Of a stretch of DNA of 33,489 nucleotides, positions 2-20,603 are shown in pieces; position 1 is the first letter of the stretch, and each line of letters opens with the position of its first letter. The notes beneath the pieces are model-generated. The model saw nothing but the letters and a program-made list of their open reading frames with translations. It did not search any database and was not told where the DNA came from. The stretch lies in NCBI GenBank assembly GCA_013697735.1, contig JACCWH010000153.1, positions 1 to 33,489 on the forward strand, written 5' to 3'. This stretch comes from Trueperaceae bacterium (GTDB lineage Bacteria; Deinococcota; Deinococci; Deinococcales; Trueperaceae). A program made the position numbers and the translations under genes.

Positions 2-784
2 GCCGCCACCGCGGCCGTCGCGGCCGCGCGCCTCGGCGGCGCCGTGCACCTCTGGGCCGTCCACGGCGACGACGACGACGGCGAAGCCTGCCGCGCCGAG
101 CTGGCCGCCGAAGGGGTCGACGTCGGCGGCATCCGCACCACGCTCGGCTCACGATCGTTCGTCTCGGCGGTGCTCGTAGCGCCCGACGGTGAACGCTTCA
201 TCTTCCCCTTTCGAGGCGATGCGCTCCTCGACGACCCCAGCGGACTCGACTGGTCGGCGCTGCCGGGGCTCGGCGCGCTGCTCACCGATGGCCGACACCC
301 TGCCATGGCGTCGTTCGCCCTCGACGCCGCGCGGCGCTCCGGCGTCCCCACGATCGGAGACTGGAGCGACGGGCGGCATTGGCACCTCGTCGATCTCGTC
401 GACCACCTGATCGTGTCGGAGGAGTGCGCGGCGGCGGTGCTCGGGCGAGACGATCCGGTCGCCGCACTCGCACGGTTGCGGGCGTTCCCCAGCCAGCTCG
501 TCGCGATCACCCTGGGCGCACGAGGCGTAGTCTGGGACGCAGGCGACGGACCATGGCGCCTCCGCGCTCCGCCGATCGACGCCGTCGACACGACCGGAGC
601 CGGTGACGCATTCCACGGCGCGTACGCCTGGGCGATCGCCGACGGCCGCGAGCCCGCGGCCGCAATGCGCCTCGCGACCGCCGCCGCAGCACTCATGTGC
701 CGCGGCCACGGCCGCGCCACGTTGCCCGACGTTCACGCGGCCGAGGAATTCGCCGCCCACTTGCCATCGGAGGAACGAGCGTGA
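2..784 (+). CDS. PfkB-family sugar kinase, YihV-like (5' end outside window)
   Basis: This is a ribokinase/PfkB-family kinase that should transfer phosphate from ATP to a sugar hydroxyl in the cytoplasm. The reading frame is open from base 2. The residues before the GTG at 44 (AAARLGG) are a normal internal part of the family fold, so the true start lies upstream of the window. The C-terminal PfkB signature DTTGAGDAFHGA is clear, with the catalytic Asp at codon 605-607. The FHGA ending, the GERFIFPF strand, the TDGRHPA segment and the GDWSDGRHW segment recall E. coli YihV (6-deoxy-6-sulfofructose kinase) as I remember it. That resemblance is from memory, not from an alignment. The stop codon overlaps the GTG of the aldolase gene (GTGA), so the two are translationally coupled and probably act in sequence: phosphorylation, then cleavage. 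The substrate is not proven; a tagatose-, fructose- or sulfosugar-type ketose is most likely. Confidence 0.88.
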   Translation, partial: AATAAVAAARLGGAVHLWAVHGDDDDGEACRAELAAEGVDVGGIRTTLGSRSFVSAVLVAPDGERFIFPFRGDALLDDPSGLDWSALPGLGALLTDGRHPAMASFALDAARRSGVPTIGDWSDGRHWHLVDLVDHLIVSEECAAAVLGRDDPVAALARLRAFPSQLVAITLGARGVVWDAGDGPWRLRAPPIDAVDTTGAGDAFHGAYAWAIADGREPAAAMRLATAAAALMCRGHGRATLPDVHAAEEFAAHLPSEERA

Positions 785-1875
785 CCACCACATCCGACAC
801 CACCGCGCGAAGCACGGCCACGCTCCCGGCGGGCACGCTTCGGGGCCTCATGACCCTCGCCGACGCCACCGGCCGCTTCGCCATGATCGCCGTCGATCAG
901 CGACCACCGATCTTCCAAGCGATCGCACGCCACGGTGGGCGACGCCCCGAAGACGTCACATACGATGAGATCTCGCTCGTGAAGGGAGTGCTCGTCGAGG
1001 TATTGGCGCCCCACGCGACCGCCGTGCTCTGCGACCCGGTCTGGACCCACCCACACCACGCCACCGCCGTTCCGGGGCGAGTCGGCCTCCTATCGACGCT
1101 GGAAGACCACGAATTTGCGCTCGTCGATGGCGAACGCCGCTCGCAGGCGATCGCCGATTGGACCGTGTCGAAGATCAAGCGCAGCGGCGCCCAGGGGGTC
1201 AAGGTGCTCGCCTGGGACCGCCGCGACGCGAGCGAAGCGACGCGAGCGCACCAGGACGCCTTCATCGCCGATGCGGGCCGTGCGTGTCGGGAACACGAGC
1301 TCCCCTTCGTGCTGGAGCTCCTCGTCTATCCCTTCCCGGGTGAGGACGCCACGTCCGCCGCGTACGCCCGTGCGAAACCCGAGCGCGTGCTCGAGTCGGT
1401 TCGGCACTACGCCGAGGAGCGCTTCGGCGTCGACCTGCTCAAGCTCGAGTTCCCGGCCGATCTCAAGTACACGCGTGAGTTCGCCTCCGGCGCCTTCGAC
1501 GGCGTGGCACGCGAGCACGTCTACGACCTCGGTGAGGTCGAAGCACACCTCGCGCACCTCGATAGCGTCGCGAGCGTTCCCTGGGTGATCCTTTCCGCCG
1601 GCGTCGGCCCACGCGAGTTCGCCCTCAACGTCGAACTCGGCTGTGCGGCCGGGGCCAGCGGGTTCCTCGCCGGGCGCGCCGTCTGGTGGGACGCCCTCGA
1701 CGCCTACCCCGACGTCGACGCCATGCGCGAGCGGCTCGCGCGCCTCAGCGTCCCGTACCTCCAGTCCCTCACGGCGAGCGTGGCTCGCGGTACGCCCTGG
1801 ACGGAGCACCGACGTTTCGGCGGCGCTGTGGGCATCGCGGGCGCATCGTCGACATGGTTCGAGACGTACCGATGA
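781..1875 (+). CDS. Class I sugar-phosphate aldolase, LacD/YihT family
   Basis: This 364-residue TIM-barrel aldolase belongs to the class I (Schiff base) tagatose-1,6-bisphosphate aldolase group. It should split a phosphorylated ketose into dihydroxyacetone phosphate and a three-carbon aldehyde. Seen here are the N-terminal AVDQR motif, a DLLKLEF segment whose Lys221 is the likely Schiff-base lysine, and a C-terminal block with PWVILSAGV followed by GASGFLAGRAVW. This block matches what I recall of YihT (6-deoxy-6-sulfofructose-1-phosphate aldolase) better than LacD, which has a longer spacer before GRATW. The GTG at 781 is chosen because it overlaps the kinase stop and gives a normal N-terminus; the in-frame extension to 697 would lie inside the kinase gene and is Arg-rich. 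The gene is followed by a 4-base overlap with the first oxidoreductase. The family call is firm. The substrate, which could also be tagatose or another ketose phosphate, is inference. Confidence 0.88.
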   Translation: MTTTSDTTARSTATLPAGTLRGLMTLADATGRFAMIAVDQRPPIFQAIARHGGRRPEDVTYDEISLVKGVLVEVLAPHATAVLCDPVWTHPHHATAVPGRVGLLSTLEDHEFALVDGERRSQAIADWTVSKIKRSGAQGVKVLAWDRRDASEATRAHQDAFIADAGRACREHELPFVLELLVYPFPGEDATSAAYARAKPERVLESVRHYAEERFGVDLLKLEFPADLKYTREFASGAFDGVAREHVYDLGEVEAHLAHLDSVASVPWVILSAGVGPREFALNVELGCAAGASGFLAGRAVWWDALDAYPDVDAMRERLARLSVPYLQSLTASVARGTPWTEHRRFGGAVGIAGASSTWFETYR

Positions 1876-2918
1876 CGCCGGGTGCCACCATGGGCGTGGT
1901 GGTCGTCGGTGCCGGCGACATGGGAGCGCGCCACGCGACACACTGGCAGGCCGTCGGCGCATGCGTGGTGGCGGTCGTCGACCGCGACGTCGAGCGTGCG
2001 AGCGCCATCGCCGGTCCGCTGGGGGCGGCCCATGGTGGCGACCTCGGACCCTACCTGCGCCACGAAGGGGTGCACGTGGTGTCGGTGTGTACGCCCACCC
2101 ACCTGCACGCCCCCTTCACGATCGCCGCGCTCGAGGCGGGAAAGCACGTGCTCTGCGAGAAACCGGCGGCGCTCACGCTCGCCGACGCGCACGCGATGCG
2201 GGCCGCTGCGGTGGCGTCGGGATGCGAACTGCGCATCGGCTTCATGCGCCGCTTCGACCCCGCGTACGAACCGATGGGTACGTTCATCGGACGCATCGGC
2301 CGACCCGTGCTCGCCCAGGTCACCATCACCGCCGGCGTCCGCCCCAAGCGGCTCATGCACGACGCCCTGGCGAACGGCGGCCCGATCATCGACATGTGCT
2401 GCCACGTGTTCACGCAGTGGCGGACCCTGTTCGACGGCCGACCCGAGCTCGTGAGCGCGCGTGGGTATACCTTCTCCGACAACAAGCCGGAGGTGGCCGC
2501 GATCGACCAGCGGGCCCTCGATAGCGCGCTCGTCACGATCGAGTACGCCGACGGCTCGGTCGGGCAGATCCAGGTCTCGTGGGGGCTCCCGGCGGGGATC
2601 GAGGCCGTCGAACGCCACTCCTACGTCGGTCCCGACGGACACGTGGTCGTCGATTGGCCCAAGCGTGTGACGCTCCGCGACGCGAGCGGCGTCACGCGCT
2701 GGTCGTCGAGCGGCGTCGACCCGTGGCGCGAGGAGATCGCGTGGTTCCACCGCGAGCTCCGCGATGGAGCCGAGCGCCGCGTCGCCACCATCGACGACGG
2801 CGTGGAGGCGCTGCTGACCTCCCTCGCCGTGTTGCGATCCGTCCGCGAGCGTCGCGGCGTGACCCTCGACGAGATCCTCCGCGAGGATGCCCGCGAGGTC
2901 GAGGCGACGATCCGATGA
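1872..2918 (+). CDS. Gfo/Idh/MocA-family NAD(P)-dependent oxidoreductase (1)
   Basis: This 348-residue protein has the two-domain Gfo/Idh/MocA fold: an N-terminal Rossmann domain with GAGDMG at residues 13-18, then an alpha/beta domain. The family motif EKP has its catalytic Lys at 97. The C-terminal domain carries the usual Asp174-x3-His178 pair in the GGPIID...H motif, as in inositol 2-dehydrogenase (IolG). It should oxidise or reduce a hydroxyl of a sugar or cyclitol using NAD(P). The ATG at 1872 overlaps the aldolase stop (ATGA); a second ATG at 1890 (Met7) would also leave the nucleotide-binding strand intact. It lies third in an operon with a sugar kinase, an aldolase and a second family member, so it probably prepares or interconverts the sugar feeding the kinase. 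The exact substrate cannot be read from sequence. Some members of this superfamily are NAD-dependent glycosidases (GH109, GH179, GH188), which remains possible. Confidence 0.87.
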   Translation: MTPGATMGVVVVGAGDMGARHATHWQAVGACVVAVVDRDVERASAIAGPLGAAHGGDLGPYLRHEGVHVVSVCTPTHLHAPFTIAALEAGKHVLCEKPAALTLADAHAMRAAAVASGCELRIGFMRRFDPAYEPMGTFIGRIGRPVLAQVTITAGVRPKRLMHDALANGGPIIDMCCHVFTQWRTLFDGRPELVSARGYTFSDNKPEVAAIDQRALDSALVTIEYADGSVGQIQVSWGLPAGIEAVERHSYVGPDGHVVVDWPKRVTLRDASGVTRWSSSGVDPWREEIAWFHRELRDGAERRVATIDDGVEALLTSLAVLRSVRERRGVTLDEILREDAREVEATIR

Positions 2919-3994
2919 TGAGCGTCCCCTCCGACGCCGTCGCCCTGTTGCGCGACCGTCTCGAGCGGATTGCCGCCTGGCGCAGTACCCGGGGCGTCGA
3001 CGCGGTCGTGCTGCGTCGCGCCGAGAACCTCGCCTGGATCACCGGCGGCGGCGATCTCCGCGTCTCTCGCGAAGGTGACGCCGTCGCCGATGCGGTCGTC
3101 ACGGACGCTGGGCTGACGCTGATCACGAACCGCATCGAAGCCGCGCGACTCGAACGTGAGATCGCACCCCCCGGGACGCGCTTCGAGGTGGTCCCGTGGC
3201 ACGAGCCGGGCGCGCGTGCAAAGGCGCTCGCCCGCCTCACCGTCGATCTCCGCACCGCGAACGACGGCGAGTACGATCTCGCCGAGCTCCGCCTCCCCCT
3301 GACGTCGCTCGAGCGTGAGCGCTTCGAGTACGTCGGTGGCCTCGCCGCTCGCGCACTCACCGACGCCGCGAGTGCGCTGCGCCCCGACATGCGTGAGTAC
3401 GACGTCGCCGCGGAGGTCCACCTCAGTGCGCGCCGCGCCGGACTCGAGCTCCCGGTCGTGCTCGTCGCCGGCGCCGAGCGGTTCGCGCGCTATCGCCATC
3501 CGGTGGTGAGTGACGCCGCGTTCGGCGCCTATGGGCTGATCGTCGTGTGCGCGCAGCGCTTCGGACTGATCGCGTCGCTGACGCGGACCGTCGCGTTCGG
3601 TAGCGTCCCGGACGAACTCGCCGAGCGCCTCGAGCGTGTGCTTCGGGTCGAGGCTGCGATGCTCGACGCCACGAGGCCCGGGGTCGCGACGAACGAAGTC
3701 CTGAGAGCCGCCCGCGACGCCTACGCCGAGGTCGGCGAACCGGACGCCTGGCTCGACCACCACCAGGGCGGCCCGGCCGGGTACACCCCACGCGAATGGC
3801 TGGCGACCCCGAGCGAGACTCGCCCGCTACTCGCCGGCACACCCGTCGCCTGGAACCCCTCCCTGCCACTCGCCAAGTCCGAGGACACGTTCATGGTGGA
3901 GCGCGACGCGCCGCCACGGAACCTGACCTGGGACGATCGCTGGCCGTCGGTGACCGTCGCCGGCCGCAAGCGCGCCAGCGTGCGCGTGCTGTGA
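2915..3994 (+). CDS. M24 (pita-bread fold) family protein, metal ligands mostly lost
   Basis: This 359-residue protein resembles creatinase/aminopeptidase P (M24): a creatinase-type N-terminal domain (about 1-130) and a pita-bread C-terminal domain (about 135-359). In active M24 metallopeptidases two Asp, one His and two Glu hold two metal ions. By position, V210 and S221 stand where the two Asp should be (TRT still follows at 223-225), and N314 replaces the first Glu. Only the His in HHQGGPAGY (282-283) and a Glu at 323 remain. It may be a metal-independent hydrolase, as creatinase is, or a non-catalytic protein. The start overlaps the preceding stop (ATGA at 2915); Met at 2918 is equally possible. 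It sits between two sugar oxidoreductases in a coupled operon, which argues for a small-molecule role rather than peptide turnover. The ligand assignment is by eye and could shift by a residue. Confidence 0.78.
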   Translation: MMSVPSDAVALLRDRLERIAAWRSTRGVDAVVLRRAENLAWITGGGDLRVSREGDAVADAVVTDAGLTLITNRIEAARLEREIAPPGTRFEVVPWHEPGARAKALARLTVDLRTANDGEYDLAELRLPLTSLERERFEYVGGLAARALTDAASALRPDMREYDVAAEVHLSARRAGLELPVVLVAGAERFARYRHPVVSDAAFGAYGLIVVCAQRFGLIASLTRTVAFGSVPDELAERLERVLRVEAAMLDATRPGVATNEVLRAARDAYAEVGEPDAWLDHHQGGPAGYTPREWLATPSETRPLLAGTPVAWNPSLPLAKSEDTFMVERDAPPRNLTWDDRWPSVTVAGRKRASVRVL

Positions 3995-5055
3995 GCGTCG
4001 ACGCGCCCCTGCGTGTCGCTCTCGTCGGTGCCGGCCGCTGGGCGGCCGTCCACCGCGACGCGCTACCGCGAGCGGGCGCCGAACTCGTGGGCGTCGCCAC
4101 GAGGAGCGAGGCTTCCGCGGACCGCGTGCGCGAGACGTGGGGGGTGCCTGCGACCACGCGGCTCGCCGAGCTGCTGGCGCTCGGCGCCGACGCCGTCATC
4201 GTCGCGAGCCCCAACGATCTCCATGCCGAGCACGCGATCGCAGCGCTCGACGCCGGCCTGCACGTGCTCGTCGAGAAGCCGATGGCGATCACGGCCGCGG
4301 ACGCGCGCGCCGTTCGCGACGCTGCCCGAGCGCGTCCTGAGCTCGTGGTCGCCGTCGGTCACGAGATGCGGACCTTCACCCTCTTCGAGCGCGTCCACGC
4401 GCTCCTCGGCGCGGGGCGCATCGGCGACCCGATCCACCTAGCGCTCGCGCTCTGGCGGCGGCCCTACCGTGCCGGCGCTGGTGGCTGGAAGTCCGACGTG
4501 CGCCGCCTCGGGTCGACGATCCTCGAGGAGCCGGTCCACTATCTCGACCTCGCTCGGTGGTACCTCGGTGATCCGGCCGGGGTCCGGGCCTGGGCGACCT
4601 CGCGCCCGGGTGAGGAGGGGGCGTGGCAGAACCTCGACGTCCGACTCGACGTCGAACGACCGGGCGCCCGCAGCGCACACGCCCTCGTCACGCGGAGCAT
4701 CGCGGCGTACGGCCACGCGGTCGACCTCAAGCTCGTCGGCACCACGGGCGCACTCCACGCGTGGTGGCGCGGCGCCATGGATCTCGATCCCGATCCCGAC
4801 GTCGGACTCGTGCTGCACGGCGGCGGCGCTACCGAGGTGCTCGAGCAGACGCGCGAGACCGGCCACGCCCACGATGTATGGCGGCAGACGAACGCCTTCG
4901 TACGGGCGATCCGAGACGGGACCGCGCCCGCCGCCGGCGCCGACGACGGCCTGGCCGCCGTGGAGCTCTGCCTCGCCGTGGAGCGGTCGCTCGCCACGGG
5001 TGATCGGGTTGCCCTGGCGTCCACGCCCGACCCGGCCCGGACGGGCGGTCGCTAG
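3991..5055 (+). CDS. Gfo/Idh/MocA-family oxidoreductase (2)
   Basis: This second family member has 354 residues and a GTG start that overlaps the M24 stop (GTGA). The Rossmann motif GAGRWA is at residues 13-18 and EKP is present with Lys96. The C-terminal active-site helix reads ILEEPVHYLDL: His183 is kept, but the residue four positions before it is Glu179 rather than the Asp found in the first copy. The two copies are clearly divergent and so probably act on different substrates or different carbons. It is the last gene of the operon and ends with a TAG that lies in one arm of a hairpin (5050-5071). The likely role is redox chemistry on a sugar, cyclitol or sugar acid in the same pathway. 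An NAD-dependent glycosidase role is possible, because several glycosidase families arose within this fold. Family is sure, substrate unknown. Confidence 0.85.
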   Translation: MSVDAPLRVALVGAGRWAAVHRDALPRAGAELVGVATRSEASADRVRETWGVPATTRLAELLALGADAVIVASPNDLHAEHAIAALDAGLHVLVEKPMAITAADARAVRDAARARPELVVAVGHEMRTFTLFERVHALLGAGRIGDPIHLALALWRRPYRAGAGGWKSDVRRLGSTILEEPVHYLDLARWYLGDPAGVRAWATSRPGEEGAWQNLDVRLDVERPGARSAHALVTRSIAAYGHAVDLKLVGTTGALHAWWRGAMDLDPDPDVGLVLHGGGATEVLEQTRETGHAHDVWRQTNAFVRAIRDGTAPAAGADDGLAAVELCLAVERSLATGDRVALASTPDPARTGGR

Positions 5056-5071
5056 CTGGGCGACGCTAGCG
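5050..5071. terminator. Bidirectional hairpin containing both stop codons
   Basis: A perfect 7-bp inverted repeat, CGCTAGC (5050-5056) and GCTAGCG (5065-5071), has an 8-base loop. It fills the 10-base gap between two convergent genes. The TAG stop of the plus-strand oxidoreductase lies in the left arm and the TAG stop of the minus-strand dehydrogenase lies in the right arm. There is no T-tract, so function as a terminator is inferred from position and symmetry. Confidence 0.5.
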
Positions 5072-6019
5072 GGGCGCCTCCGTCCGCGCCCGCTCCCCCC
5101 GGAGCACGCGCAAGACCTCGTCGACCGCGTGGTGCGAGGCGCGTGTGTTCGAGTCGATCGTGACGCCGGCGACGTGAGGCGTGAGGATGAGGTTCGGGCA
5201 CCCCGCCAGGGCGTCGTCTCGCCCGGGGGGTTCGGTCGCCCGCACGTCGAGGACCGCGCCGCCGATCGTCCCGGCGCGGAGCGCGCGAGCCAGGGCGGCC
5301 TCGTCGACGAGACCGCCTCGGGCGGTGTTCACCAGCAGCGCCGTCGGTCTCATCCGCTCGAGCGCCTCCGCACCCACCAGGTGGCGCGTGGCGGCCACCA
5401 GGGGAGCGTGCAGCGACACGACGTCCGACCCTGCCAGGAGCGTGTCGAGATCGACGAGCTCCACGTCGTACTCCTGGACGGCAGCGCTGGCGTCGTGCAC
5501 CGCGGGGTCGGAGGCGAGGACACGCATGCCGAAGGCGCGGGCGCGCCGCGCCAGCCGCGCGCCGATGTCGCCGAGCCCGACGATGCCCAGGGTGCGACCG
5601 TGGAGCTCGCGGCCCATGAACGCCTGCCGATCCCAGCCGCCGGCGTGGACGTGCTCACTCGCCGCGGCGAAGCGCCGAGCGTGGGCGAGCATCGCGCCCA
5701 TCACGTACTCCGCGACGCTCACGGCGTTCGTACCGGGCGCCCACGACACCACCACGCCCCGCTCGCGCAGCGCGGCGACGTCGATGGTGTCGAGCCCGAC
5801 GCCGACGCGGCCGACGACGCGCAGGTGCGGCGCGGCCTCGATCGCGTCGCGATCCACCAGCGTCTGGTTCCTGACGAGCCACCCGCCGGCATCCGCGAGG
5901 GCCGCGAACAGTTCCGCTCGATCGGCGTGCAATGCGGGGTGCCCCACGACCCGATGAACGGCGCGTAGCCGCGCCTCGGCGGCCGAGTCGATCCACTCCG
6001 AGACGACCACGGTGGCCAT
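5066..6019 (-). CDS. D-isomer-specific 2-hydroxyacid dehydrogenase
   Basis: This 317-residue cytoplasmic NAD-dependent dehydrogenase belongs to the phosphoglycerate/glyoxylate-hydroxypyruvate reductase superfamily. The Rossmann motif GLGDIG is at 148-153 with Asp171 ending the second strand, typical of NAD preference. The catalytic triad is complete: Arg234 in NTARGG, Glu263 in TEPP, His282 in TPHVAG. There is no C-terminal ACT domain, so it is the short form. The ATG at 6019 is preceded by GAGGAGGA at good spacing; the longer frame to 6361 is not supported. It points towards the sugar operon and ends 10 bases from it. It could reduce or oxidise a three-carbon hydroxyacid released by that pathway. 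SerA, hydroxypyruvate reductase and sulfolactate dehydrogenase (SlcC) all fall in this superfamily, and the sequence alone does not separate them. Confidence 0.87.
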   Translation of the reverse strand: MATVVVSEWIDSAAEARLRAVHRVVGHPALHADRAELFAALADAGGWLVRNQTLVDRDAIEAAPHLRVVGRVGVGLDTIDVAALRERGVVVSWAPGTNAVSVAEYVMGAMLAHARRFAAASEHVHAGGWDRQAFMGRELHGRTLGIVGLGDIGARLARRARAFGMRVLASDPAVHDASAAVQEYDVELVDLDTLLAGSDVVSLHAPLVAATRHLVGAEALERMRPTALLVNTARGGLVDEAALARALRAGTIGGAVLDVRATEPPGRDDALAGCPNLILTPHVAGVTIDSNTRASHHAVDEVLRVLRGERARTEAPR

Positions 6020-14561: not shown

Positions 14562-15671
14562 TCATGCCTCCCGCCGACTCCGGGGCGCGATCTCGTCGTG
14601 CGCGGCCTCACCGACGGGCGCTCGCGAGCGCCCGTCGGTCGTGAAGAACCGCCGTTTCAGCCACAGCGACACGCTCACGAGGCCGATCAGCACGGGCACC
14701 TCGACCAATGGACCGATGATGGCCGCGAAGGCGACCCCGGAGCCGATGCCGAAGACGCCGATCGCGACGGCGAGCGACAGTTCGAAGTTGTTGCTCGCCG
14801 CCGTGAACGACAGCGTCGCCGTCTTCGCGTAGTCGGCCCCGATGGCGCGCCCCATGGCGAAGCTCACCAGGAACATCACCACGAAGTAGATGAGCAGCGG
14901 CACCGCGATGAGCACGACGTCGAACGGGTTCGTGAGGATCGCCGCCCCCTCGAGCCCGAACATCACGACGATCGTGAAGAGCAGCGCGCCGAGCGTGACC
15001 GGGCTGATCCGCGGCAGGAAGGTGCGGTCGTACCACGTGCGCCCCATCGTAGGGATGAGCGCGACGCGCAGCAGCACCCCCACCCCGAACGGCAGACCGA
15101 GGTAGAGGAGTACGGCCAGGGCGACATCGAGGATCGAGATGTCGACGACGGCACCTTCGAGCCCGAGCCAGGCAGGGAATACGGTCACGAACGCGAACGC
15201 ATAGGCGCTGAAGAAGAGGATCTGGAAGATGCTGTTGAAGGCCACGAGCCCGGCGGCGTAGTCGTTGTCGCCGTCGGCGAGTTGGTTCCAGACGAGCACC
15301 ATGGCGATGCAGCGCGCCAGCCCGATGAGGATCACGCCGACCATGTACTCGGGGTGATCGCGGAGGAAGATCACCGCCAGCGCGAACATGAGCACCGGCC
15401 CGATCACCCAGTTCTGGAGGAGCGACAGCGTCAGCACGCGCACGTCGGAGAAGACGCGCGGCAGTTCGCCGTAGCGCACCTTCGCGAGCGGCGGGATCAT
15501 CATGAGGATGAGACCTATCGCGATCGGCACGTTCGTGGCGCCCACGCTCCAGCCGTGCACGAGGTCGCCGAAGGCGGGCACCCACGCGCCCAACGCCACG
15601 CCGATACCCATGGCCACGAAGATCCACACGGTGAGGTAGCGATCCAGGGGCGAGAGGCGGCGCGCGATCAT
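14562..15671 (-). CDS. acr3: Arsenite efflux permease ACR3
   Basis: This 369-residue inner membrane protein has about ten transmembrane segments and belongs to the ACR3 (arsenical resistance-3) family, which expels arsenite. The conserved motif [15 protein letters not shown] contains the Cys needed for transport in known members, and [13 protein letters not shown] in the second half is also characteristic. The ATG at 15671 overlaps the arsC stop (ATGA) and starts with the usual short cytoplasmic tail before the first helix; the Arg-rich extension to 15866 lies inside arsC and is not real. As the last gene of arsR-arsC-acr3, it exports the arsenite that ArsC produces. Confidence 0.95.
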
Positions 15672-16162
15672 GTGCGCACCCGCATCGCGGCAGCTCCGGT
15701 GAGTTCGTCGTCGGGCGGCACGGCGCCGCGCCCGAGGCCGTCGACGACCGCGCGGCTCATGGCGCCGATGGCGTCGCGCACGTCGCGCCACGCTCCGAGC
15801 GGCGCGCCGCTCGGGTCGGGGAACGACACGTGGCGGCGCGCCGTCGCGGCCGGATAGACGGGGCACGCCTCGTGGGCGTCGTCGCAGACGGTGAGCACGA
15901 CGTCGAAGGTCCAGGGATCGTCGATCTCGTCGAGACGCTTGCTGGTGTGCGTCCCGAGGTCGATGCCGACCTCGGCCATCACCGTCAGTGCTTCAGATTT
16001 GACGCGGGTGCGCTCGGTACCGGCGGAGTGGACCTCGATCTCGAGTCCCGTCTGGTGGGCGTGGTGTCGGATCCAGCCCTCTGCCATCTGGCTGCGCGCG
16101 GAATTGTGGGTACAGAGCACCAACACCCGTGTCGAGCACGCCCCTCGCTCCTGAGCGCTCAC
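15668..16162 (-). CDS. arsC: Arsenate reductase, thioredoxin-coupled type
   Basis: This 164-residue protein has the low-molecular-weight tyrosine phosphatase fold. It carries the Cys-x5-Arg loop CTHNSAR (Cys17, Arg23) and two more Cys in CDDAHEACP (Cys93 and Cys100, seven apart) that match the redox relay Cys82/Cys89 of the thioredoxin-linked ArsC group. It reduces arsenate to arsenite for ACR3 to export. The start is a GTG at 16162 that overlaps the arsR stop (GTGA). The C-terminal 15 residues extend past the usual end and may be a lineage feature. Family and role are certain; thioredoxin as reductant is known for the family. Confidence 0.94.
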
Positions 16163-16470
16163 GTCGCCACCCTGCGGGGAGCGTGGGCGAATCGCGCGAG
16201 CCGGTCGGCGATGGCCGCGAAAGCGGCGGGCTCGAGATCGTAGTAGACCCAGCGGCCTCGCTTCTCGGCGCGCACGAGGCCGGCATCGACGAGCAGCTTC
16301 ATGTGGTGCGAGACGGTCGGTTGGCTGAGGCCGAGGAGTTGCTCGAAATCACAGCCGCAGACGCCGTCACCGCGGCTGCAGCAGCTCGCCACGGGCGCGT
16401 GGAGGAACTCGAGTATCTGGAGCCGGACCGGGTCGGCGATCGCCTTGAGCGGGAGCGCGAGGTCGTCCAT
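16159..16470 (-). CDS. arsR: Arsenite-responsive repressor, ArsR/SmtB family
   Basis: This 103-residue winged-helix repressor shows the recognition helix SQPTVSHHMKLL (49-60) and the wing KRGRWVYYDL. Cys38 and Cys40 in GVCGCDF correspond to the Cys-x-Cys arsenite sensor in helix 3 of classical ArsR. Two further Cys (30, 31) just before may add a third sulfur ligand. It should release DNA on binding As(III) or Sb(III). The ATG at 16470 lies 6 bases after TAGGAT, with no clear ribosome binding site, so the operon mRNA is probably leaderless. The inverted repeats covering that box (16472-16497) are the likely autoregulatory operator. It heads arsR-arsC-acr3. Confidence 0.93.
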   Translation of the reverse strand: MDDLALPLKAIADPVRLQILEFLHAPVASCCSRGDGVCGCDFEQLLGLSQPTVSHHMKLLVDAGLVRAEKRGRWVYYDLEPAAFAAIADRLARFAHAPRRVAT

Positions 16471-18401: not shown

Positions 18402-20603
18402 ATGACGCGATCCCCGAGCCTCTTCCACCGTCCGGAGGACGAACCCCTGGCGGCGCGGATGCGGCCCCGTACGCTCGACGAATTCGTCGGGCAGGATCAC
18501 ATCCTCGGACCGGGGCGCCTGCTGCGCCGCGCCATACAGGCCGATCAGCTCACGTCGCTGATCTTCTATGGCCCCCCGGGTACCGGCAAGACGACCCTGG
18601 CGCGGGTCATCGCGAACTCCACGCGCGCGCACTTCACCGCCCTCAACGCGGTGCTCTCGGGCGTCAAGGACATCCGTGAGGCCGTCGCCGAGGCGCAGGA
18701 GCGGCAACGCGCGGGACATCGCACGATCCTCTTCGTCGACGAGGTACACCGCTTCAACAAGGCACAGCAGGACGCGCTCCTCCCCTGGGTCGAGAGCGGC
18801 ACCGTGGTGCTCATCGGGGCCACCACCGAGAACCCGTATTTCGAAGTCAACAAGGCCCTCGTGTCGCGCAGCCGCATCTTCCAACTCAAGCCGCACGACG
18901 AGAGCGATCTGCGGCGCGTGGTCGCACTCGTGTTGGCCGACGAGCGCCGCGGTCTGGGATCCGTTCCGGTGGACCTAGCAGCCGATGCTCTCGACCACCT
19001 CGTGAACGTCGCCAACGGCGACGCACGAGCGCTGCTGAACGCTCTGGAGCTGGCCGCGACCACCACGCCGCCAGACGAAGCCGGCCGCGTGACGATCACG
19101 CGCGAGGTGGCCGAGGAGTCGATCCAGCAGCGCGCAGTGCTCTACGACAAGGAGGGCGACGCCCACTTCGACACCATCAGCGCGTTCATCAAGAGCGTTC
19201 GCGGCTCGGACGCCGACGCCGCCCTCTACTGGCTCGCGAAGATGGTCTACGCCGGCGAGGACCCGCGCTTCATCCTGCGCCGTCTCATCATCCTGGCGAG
19301 CGAAGACGTCGGACTCGCCGACCCCCAGGCGCTGGGCGTGGTGACGAGCGCGGCCCAGGCCTACGACTACGTCGGTCTCCCGGAAGGGCGCTACCACCTC
19401 GCGCAGGCGACCCTCTACCTCGCGACCGCGCCGAAATCGAACAGCACCATGGGCTTCTTCGACGCGCTCGAAGCGGTCCGGAAGGAGCGCGAAGCCGAGG
19501 TCCCGAATCACCTGCGCGACGGCAACCGCGACGCTGAAGGCTTCGGGCATGGCGCCGGCTACGCCTATCCCCACGCCTACCGCGAGCACTGGGTCGCGCA
19601 GCAGTACCTCCCCGCCGCGCTCCAGGGCAAGGTCTTCTACCGACCCTCCGATCGCGGCAGCGAAGGCCGAATCCGCGACGACGTCGATCGTCGGCGCGAA
19701 GCGCAGCTCGCTGCCATGCTGGAGGAGGGGACGCACGCACCCGTCGAGATCCTGACGCACGGCCCCGCCGACCGGGCACGCGATCGTTGGCTCGAACGGA
19801 CCGTCTCCAGCGCCGGCGAGCGCCTCGGACGCGTGCGCGACGTGCTCTTCGACCTCGCCCGGGTCCAGCGGCACTTCGTCGTGCTCGACGTCGCCGCGGG
19901 CACGGGGCTCCTCACCTGGGAGGCAGTGCGGCGCACACCGGAAGGGCAGGTCTGGGCGGCCGTGCACGAGTCGGCGCACGCGACGACGCTGCGCGAGGGG
20001 GCCGCGCGCCTCGACGAGCTCGCTCGCCCCGTGGTGCTCGAGTCGGCGCCCGAGGGGGTCCCGGCGGCGCTCGCCGCCGGGTCGCACGAGCCGATTCGCT
20101 TCGACCGCGTCTTCGCGCGCGACGTCCTCCAGCACATCGCGGAACCCACCGCGTGGCTCCGCGCCATCGCCTCTTGGCTCACGCACGACGGCAGCGTCTT
20201 CCTCGCCGAGGTCGACGCGTCGCGCGCGCAGCGCCTCTCGACGCTCGTCGATTGGTCGGGACGCGAGGCGCTCGGAACGGCGGTCGCCGAGGCCGAGGCG
20301 ACGCTCTACGGCGAAGCCCCGGCGTGGACGGCGGCGAGGCTCGTCGCGCTCGCGCACGATGCCGGGCTCGCCGACGCGAGCCACCACGAGGTGGTGGTGC
20401 GAGCCGATCAGCGCATCTCGGCGCGCGCCGTCGAGCGCTGGTTCGGCACCGCCGAAACGCCGGGACCGTACGCAGCTGCGCTCGCCAAGCGGCTCGAGGG
20501 CGCCGAGCTCGCCGAGGTCGAGCGCCGCTACCGCACGCGCTTCGCCGACCACGTCGTGCCGTGGCGGACGGTGGTGACCATCGTGCGAGCAGGCGGATCG
20601 TGA
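18402..20603 (+). CDS. rarA: RarA/MgsA AAA+ ATPase fused to a methyltransferase-like domain
   Basis: This 733-residue protein is two proteins in one frame. Residues 1-440 are a full RarA (MgsA/WRNIP1 family) replication-maintenance ATPase, with Walker A GPPGTGKTT at 57-65, Walker B DEVHRFNK from 113, sensor GATTENPYFEVN, and the C-terminal tetramerisation and MgsA regions ending near YLPAALQGKVFY. Residues about 460-733 add a Rossmann-like SAM methyltransferase domain with VLDVAAGTGLLTWEAVRR (motif I from 494), an Asp-containing FDRVFARDVLQHI segment and a LAEVDASRA strand. Ordinary RarA ends at about 430-450 residues. No stop or frameshift occurs at the junction. RarA acts at stalled forks and single-stranded DNA; the methyltransferase part has no known partner that I can name. 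The stop codon sits inside a strong hairpin. Confidence 0.9.
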   Translation: MTRSPSLFHRPEDEPLAARMRPRTLDEFVGQDHILGPGRLLRRAIQADQLTSLIFYGPPGTGKTTLARVIANSTRAHFTALNAVLSGVKDIREAVAEAQERQRAGHRTILFVDEVHRFNKAQQDALLPWVESGTVVLIGATTENPYFEVNKALVSRSRIFQLKPHDESDLRRVVALVLADERRGLGSVPVDLAADALDHLVNVANGDARALLNALELAATTTPPDEAGRVTITREVAEESIQQRAVLYDKEGDAHFDTISAFIKSVRGSDADAALYWLAKMVYAGEDPRFILRRLIILASEDVGLADPQALGVVTSAAQAYDYVGLPEGRYHLAQATLYLATAPKSNSTMGFFDALEAVRKEREAEVPNHLRDGNRDAEGFGHGAGYAYPHAYREHWVAQQYLPAALQGKVFYRPSDRGSEGRIRDDVDRRREAQLAAMLEEGTHAPVEILTHGPADRARDRWLERTVSSAGERLGRVRDVLFDLARVQRHFVVLDVAAGTGLLTWEAVRRTPEGQVWAAVHESAHATTLREGAARLDELARPVVLESAPEGVPAALAAGSHEPIRFDRVFARDVLQHIAEPTAWLRAIASWLTHDGSVFLAEVDASRAQRLSTLVDWSGREALGTAVAEAEATLYGEAPAWTAARLVALAHDAGLADASHHEVVVRADQRISARAVERWFGTAETPGPYAAALAKRLEGAELAEVERRYRTRFADHVVPWRTVVTIVRAGGS

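Follow-up and report, generated by a model that had tools for sequence, protein, structure and literature searches.

The 33,489-nucleotide stretch analysed here (the window) is the start of contig C63, part of a 3.5-Mb genome; among named genomes, Trueperaceae MAGs are its closest relatives. At the left end of the window probably lies the 3′ portion of an operon that serves the uptake and breakdown of a sulfonated hexose, with sulfoquinovose or a stereoisomer as the likeliest substrate. Plants and algae produce very large amounts of sulfoquinovose, one of the chief sources of organic sulfur. From the isomerase, the kinase, the residue patterns, and the gene context together, we infer a divergent sulfo-EMP-type pathway of Deinococcota that would use a third combination of enzymes. 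Gene order, conservation, family placement, and residue patterns are direct observations, from which each substrate and reaction discussed below is deduced. The window sequence and Pfam place five plus-strand genes at 2-5055 and a convergent dehydrogenase gene beside them:

2-784, plus strand: PfkB sugar kinase of a clade sister to YihV, truncated at its 5′ end by the contig start (Pfam, 121.5 bits; trees; residues)
781-1875, plus strand: class I aldolase of the PRK12858 group (NF009498, 294.5 bits; PDB matches; tree)
1872-2918, plus strand: GFO1, a Gfo/Idh/MocA oxidoreductase (Pfam; adjoins the aldolase in relatives)
2915-3994, plus strand: M24-fold protein of the prolidase/creatinase type in which four of the five metal ligands are gone (Pfam; alignment; predicted fold; context)
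3991-5055, plus strand: GFO2, a Gfo/Idh oxidoreductase related to the NAD-dependent sulfoquinovosidases of GH188 but altered in its anion loop, WRRPYRAGAGGWK (PDB 8qc2; structural match; residue test)
5066-6019, minus strand: convergent 2-hydroxyacid dehydrogenase (Pfam; kept beside the cluster in relatives)

The first-pass annotation described five genes with four 4-base junctions in this family order, and the description holds. All four overlaps are present in the window sequence (GTGA at 781-784, ATGA at 1872-1875, ATGA at 2915-2918, and GTGA at 3991-3994), and the Pfam families agree (PfkB, DeoC/LacD aldolase, GFO_IDH_MocA, Peptidase_M24, GFO_IDH_MocA, and the convergent 2-Hacid_dh at 5066-6019). 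Related loci with the same order have overlaps of 4, 4, 4, and 4 bases (L025 and L026) or of 4, 4, and 4 bases followed by a gap (L027 and L028). Because the overlapping order is repeated in related genomes, it is not due to chance. A whole-genome search finds the aldolase in 20 of 39 Trueperaceae genomes (18/39 at E < 1e-100). With genes in the relatives’ neighbourhoods called by codon usage in this GC-rich DNA, the conserved Trueperaceae order reads LacI regulator, binding protein, two ABC permeases, a protein of ~470 amino acids, kinase, aldolase, GFO1, M24-fold protein, GFO2, and convergent 2-hydroxyacid dehydrogenase. The M24 gene is missing from five Trueperaceae loci.

The kinase frame is truncated because contig C63 starts at window base 1. 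On contig C206 of this genome, the last genes are two for ABC permeases, one for a 479-residue isomerase, and one that encodes the kinase N-terminus and breaks off shortly before the point where C63 starts. We infer from this gene content that the operon continues upstream across a C206-C63 join, the contigs sharing no overlap. The C206 isomerase is 64% identical to that of L025. The ~470-residue upstream protein carries a Fucose_iso_C domain, and its sole NCBIfam match is SftI, a sulfoquinovose isomerase; the L028 isomerase reaches 116 bits against this model (NF048012), under the 700-bit cut-off. The isomerase of an actinobacterial GH188 cluster likewise scores only 267 bits against the same cut-off of 700. 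It had been proposed that redox steps replace the isomerase in this operon. That idea is wrong, since a fucose-isomerase-type gene lies directly upstream in the relatives and on C206, giving the order isomerase, kinase, and aldolase. Two isomerase paralogues (30-35% identical) are found at other sugar loci of the same genome (L152:4781-6214 and L153:324-1766), and a midpoint-rooted tree places them closer to the Deinococcota than to the Rhodobacterales isomerases.

The kinase was initially described as YihV-like, which the trees and residues bear out. Its best PDB match is YihV (7ag6) with 112.8 bits, and another sugar kinase, 2rbc, scores on a par with it. In the trees, the kinases of Trueperaceae, Deinococcus peraridilitoris, and Thermaceae form the sister of the YihV-containing clade, and RbsK, KdgK, FruK, FrlD, and LacC all fall outside this grouping. 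The kinase lies outside the YihV clade itself (sister split supports of 99/92 versus 97/90), and a second tree agrees. The kinase tree joins long outgroup branches, so only its main splits are used. Positions 27, 138, and 109 of YihV, which we take to be sulfonate-site residues, are retained in part. Lys27 corresponds to Arg in all Deinococcota sequences examined (in the window kinase, within the motif FPPTSSRT on contig C206), and Arg138 is kept in 12 of 12 aligned kinases (Arg98 of the window). However, Asn109 is replaced by Pro in all 12, and Pro is found at this position in both Trueperaceae and Thermaceae. Basic residues at 27 and 138 are absent from the other PfkB kinases compared (RbsK, LacC, KdgK, and FruK). 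The motifs SRT, IFPYR, and DxR are common to the Thermaceae and Trueperaceae kinases.

The aldolase had also been likened to its sulfoglycolytic counterpart, YihT, and here the likeness fails. The two enzymes are separated at 100/100 in the tree and share 26% identity; judged by sequence, their resemblance is at the superfamily level. LacD is separate as well (TIGR01232, 134 bits against a cut-off of 432). The closest PDB structure is 8tnf (232 bits), followed by LacD (~130) and YihT (~70). The aldolase scores 294.5 bits against NF009498, above the cut-off of 184, and the name tagatose 1,6-diphosphate aldolase is family-level naming only. A tagatose or fructose grouping coupled with a lack of sulfonate residues, named at the outset as the result that would refute a sulfosugar role, was not found. 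Elsewhere, at a Rubrivivax locus (L072) with no isomerase, a PRK12858 aldolase accompanies a kinase resembling YihV and an aldolase resembling YihT (51-52% identical).

The suggested link between the Gfo/Idh proteins and the GH188 glycosidases stands for the ancestry of GFO2 but not for its full ligand set, nor for GFO1. GFO2 matches the GH188 structure 8qc2 at 62 bits, and a structure search places GH188 among its top matches, alongside glucuronide 3-dehydrogenase and others. The GH188 residue set is that of ArSqgA (PMC10755693). Its sulfonate ligand Arg166 corresponds to Arg156 of GFO2 (12/12 sequences), and Glu189, His193, and His321 are conserved in 12/12, with His321 less certain (GHAHD aligned with GDHHG). 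The second sulfonate ligand, Lys172, is Gly in all 12; Tyr136, which contacts the C2 hydroxyl, is Met or Ile; Glu163 is lost; and Leu170 is Arg. The cluster Gfo/Idh of the Rhodobacterales type keeps the sulfonate ligands and main catalytic residues of GH188 (Arg166, Leu170, Lys172, Tyr136, Glu189, and His193) in 26 of 26 sequences. Residue comparison finds no GH188 sulfonate ligands in GFO1, whose gene adjoins the aldolase gene in relatives.

In the proposed pathway, the ABC transporter would take up the sugar, the fucose-isomerase-type enzyme would convert the aldose to a 6-sulfo-ketose, the kinase would phosphorylate C1, and the class I aldolase would yield DHAP and sulfolactaldehyde. GFO2 might release the sugar from a glycoside through transient oxidation at C3, as GH188 enzymes do, and sulfolactate would be the substrate of the 2-hydroxyacid dehydrogenase. 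The original suggestion of a variant sulfosugar or rare-sugar pathway is thereby narrowed: the Thermaceae and Rhodobacterales context points to sulfosugars, but the substitution of redox steps for the isomerase is not retained.

This context comes from homologous clusters. In Rhodobacterales, Thioglobus, and Actinomycetota, all outside Deinococcota, kinases and aldolases of these groups stand beside GH188 and an SftI-like isomerase, and the Shimia cluster also holds an aldehyde dehydrogenase and ComD and ComE above NCBIfam cut-offs. In a second Deinococcota family, taken as Thermaceae, the isomerase is found in 24 genomes (43-49% identity). The gene order there is small SAF protein, large GD_AH protein, 2-hydroxyacid dehydrogenase, Ldh2, transporter, isomerase, kinase, and aldolase. 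The Thermaceae Ldh2 scores highest against the L-sulfolactate dehydrogenase model (205 bits, under its cut-off of 500), and the SuyAB-like and ComC-like assignments used here lie below curated cut-offs or belong to models without them. The isomerase is present in 25 of 26 Deinococcota with a SuyB-like gene versus 19 of 85 without one, a statistic that ignores shared ancestry. A Gfo/Idh that carries the complete GH188 loop signature is located several kb from the Thermaceae clusters, and in one genome a glycerol kinase-like gene follows it; another genome of this set has GH31, glycerol kinase, and glycerophosphate-oxidase-type genes beside the cluster. Such genes near Thermaceae-type clusters would be as expected for the use of sulfoquinovosyl glycerol. 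An apparent gene set for the conversion of sulfoquinovose to pyruvate and sulfite is seen in L193-L197 and L201 (Thermaceae-type and G042), comprising SuyAB-like, SlcC-like, and ComC-like genes, transporter, isomerase, kinase, and aldolase; in several of these loci, GH188 and glycerol kinase genes lie close by.

GH31 glycosidases are a further partner of these clusters. The residues Q288, R301, W304, and Y508, presumed here to mark sulfoquinovosidases such as YihQ, are absent from the GH31 proteins of the D. peraridilitoris and Kiloniellaceae clusters. Because both proteins are also nearer YicI, they were rejected as sulfoquinovosidases and give no support to the sulfosugar case. A GH31 group that is ~50% identical across phyla lies beside isomerase-kinase-aldolase genes (L120:14999-17185, L196:5940-7937, L204:1656-3740, and L051:12522-14498). 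Two members of this group were compared with YihQ and lack its sulfoquinovosidase residues; the group may represent a different glycosidase or a new type of sulfoquinovosidase.

The 2-hydroxyacid dehydrogenase is possibly an SlcC-type sulfolactate dehydrogenase, an assignment made by analogy. Its homologues lie next to ComC/SuyAB-like genes in Thermaceae and, in Shimia, next to ComDE. The window type forms its own clade in the dehydrogenase tree, which does not resolve whether the cluster dehydrogenases group into a single clade. No SuyAB, ComC, or ComDE genes are linked to the Trueperaceae cluster, which likewise contains no aldehyde dehydrogenase or reductase and has no linked YihU or SlaB. 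A SuyB-like gene occurs among Trueperaceae only in G027, at a separate locus, and no sulfopyruvate decarboxylase ComDE scores above the curated cut-off in this family. A succinate-semialdehyde-type dehydrogenase was considered for the missing step and discarded as uninformative, since it is present in 37 of 39 genomes with or without the cluster.

Several observations count against a sulfosugar substrate: GFO2 lacks Lys172 and Tyr136, the kinase has Pro in place of Asn109, the isomerase reaches 116 of the 700 bits set for SftI, and no sulfolactaldehyde or sulfolactate lyase genes are linked to the cluster in Trueperaceae. The same pathway logic could apply to a hexose that carries a different acid function at C6, for instance a uronic acid or a glycoside of one, with the basic residues binding a carboxylate. 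The matches of GFO2 to glucuronide 3-dehydrogenase (8tdi) and WlbA in both sequence and structure would fit this explanation, as would the exchange of Lys172 for Gly and Leu170 for Arg and the GH31 partners of sister clusters that lack sulfoquinovosidase residues. We consider it unlikely, however, as clusters of the same enzymes in Thermaceae and Rhodobacterales hold sulfolactate or sulfopyruvate genes. It is rather unlikely that a neutral sugar (tagatose, fructose, or a 6-deoxyhexose) is degraded by isomerase, 1-kinase, and aldolase, with the likeness to sulfoglycolysis confined to the family level. The NCBIfam name of the aldolase and the presence of same-group aldolases and kinases in isomerase-less Bradyrhizobium-type loci favour such a route, but the aldolase stands apart from LacD and the kinase from LacC and FruK, and the basic pair at 27/138 is retained.

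An inositol-type pathway would instead cast the Gfo/Idh proteins as IolG-like dehydrogenases, the kinase as IolC-like, and the aldolase as IolJ-like. The best NCBIfam model of both Gfo/Idh proteins is indeed inositol 2-dehydrogenase (136 and 113 bits), and the kinase matches IolC at 73 bits, all far under the cut-offs. Additionally, the nearest PDB structure of the aldolase, 8tnf, is labelled a DUF2090 protein, and DUF2090 is a proposed IolC-linked aldolase, although the window aldolase has no DUF2090 Pfam match. This pathway is highly improbable and was rejected because of the low scores, the absence of IolB, IolD, and IolE from the cluster, and the aldose isomerase upstream. A sulfo-EMP-type pathway remains the preferred explanation.

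Sulfoglycolysis itself and nearly identical parts lists are already known (PMC11465081; PMC10755693; PMC9594981). The sulfo-EMP pathway (YihS/YihV/YihT of E. coli; Arthrobacter) shares with the Trueperaceae cluster an isomerase, a C1 kinase of the YihV branch, and a class I aldolase in the same logical order. However, the Trueperaceae isomerase is of the fucose-isomerase type rather than YihS, the aldolase belongs to the PRK12858 group rather than YihT, YihU or SlaB is not linked, and two Gfo/Idh proteins and the M24-fold protein are extra. Sulfo-EMP2 (SqvD/SqiK/SqiA) uses an isomerase of the same fucose-isomerase-type family, whereas the Trueperaceae kinase is PF00294 rather than PF00365 and the aldolase class I rather than class II (PMC9594981). 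The GH188 clusters have an almost identical set of parts. In actinobacterium IMCC26103, a fucose isomerase is combined with SF kinase, SFP aldolase, and a gene resembling phosphoglycerate dehydrogenase (PMC11465081), and Jannaschia provides a further example (PMC10755693). Relative to these, Trueperaceae GFO2 lacks Lys172 and Tyr136, SuyAB and the SLA dehydrogenase are unlinked, and GFO1 and the M24-fold protein are extra. The sulfofucose degrader Paracoccus wurundjeri also has a PF00294 kinase and a PF01791 aldolase in a sulfonate cluster, and its SuyA-SuyB-SlcC-ComC order is that of the Thermaceae (PMC12421959). Its sugar breakdown is of the Entner-Doudoroff type, whereas in Trueperaceae the SuyAB-SlcC-ComC module is unlinked.

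A literature search returned no report of sulfosugar breakdown in Deinococcota, but it ranked off-topic papers first and so does not prove absence; the strings Deinococc and Truepera do not occur in a 2026 survey of sulfoquinovose degraders. If the sulfosugar assignment is correct, this metabolism extends to Trueperaceae and Thermaceae, and the enzyme set escapes searches built on YihS, YihT, or classical glycosidases. Cultivated Meiothermus species would then offer a tractable test organism.

The M24-fold protein has a predicted prolidase/creatinase fold (pLDDT 88). Alignment with 1pv9 shows that the metal ligands D209, D220, H284, and E313 are replaced and E327 is kept, and the conserved pattern is DHHQGG...NPS...EDTF. 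The protein is present in 51 of 111 Deinococcota. Its gene lies between galT and galK in a Meiothermus-type genome, and beside galK in a Trueperaceae genome (G028). In G042 it follows a series of isomerase, kinase, aldolase, and GH31 genes, and the plasmid cluster of D. peraridilitoris holds it as well; it adjoins isomerase-kinase-aldolase genes in three lineages. Since such sites often hold a mutarotase (GalM or YihR would be expected), the protein may, by analogy of position, act as an aldose mutarotase. Among Trueperaceae, the GalM family PF01263 is found in 3 of 17 genomes with the M24 protein versus 11 of 22 without it (p = 0.049, uncorrected for ancestry), and the window’s own genome has no PF01263 match. 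The combined proposal, that Deinococcota possess a third sulfoglycolysis enzyme set in which a metal-free M24-fold protein serves as a new kind of aldose mutarotase, is a long shot.

Two other features of the window were noted by eye. A single plus-strand frame at 18402-20603 seemingly fuses an AAA ATPase of the RarA/MgsA type to a C-terminal half that resembles a methyltransferase, and an arsenic-resistance-like set on the minus strand at 14562-16470 comprises an ArsR-type regulator, an arsenate reductase-like protein, and an ACR3-like permease.
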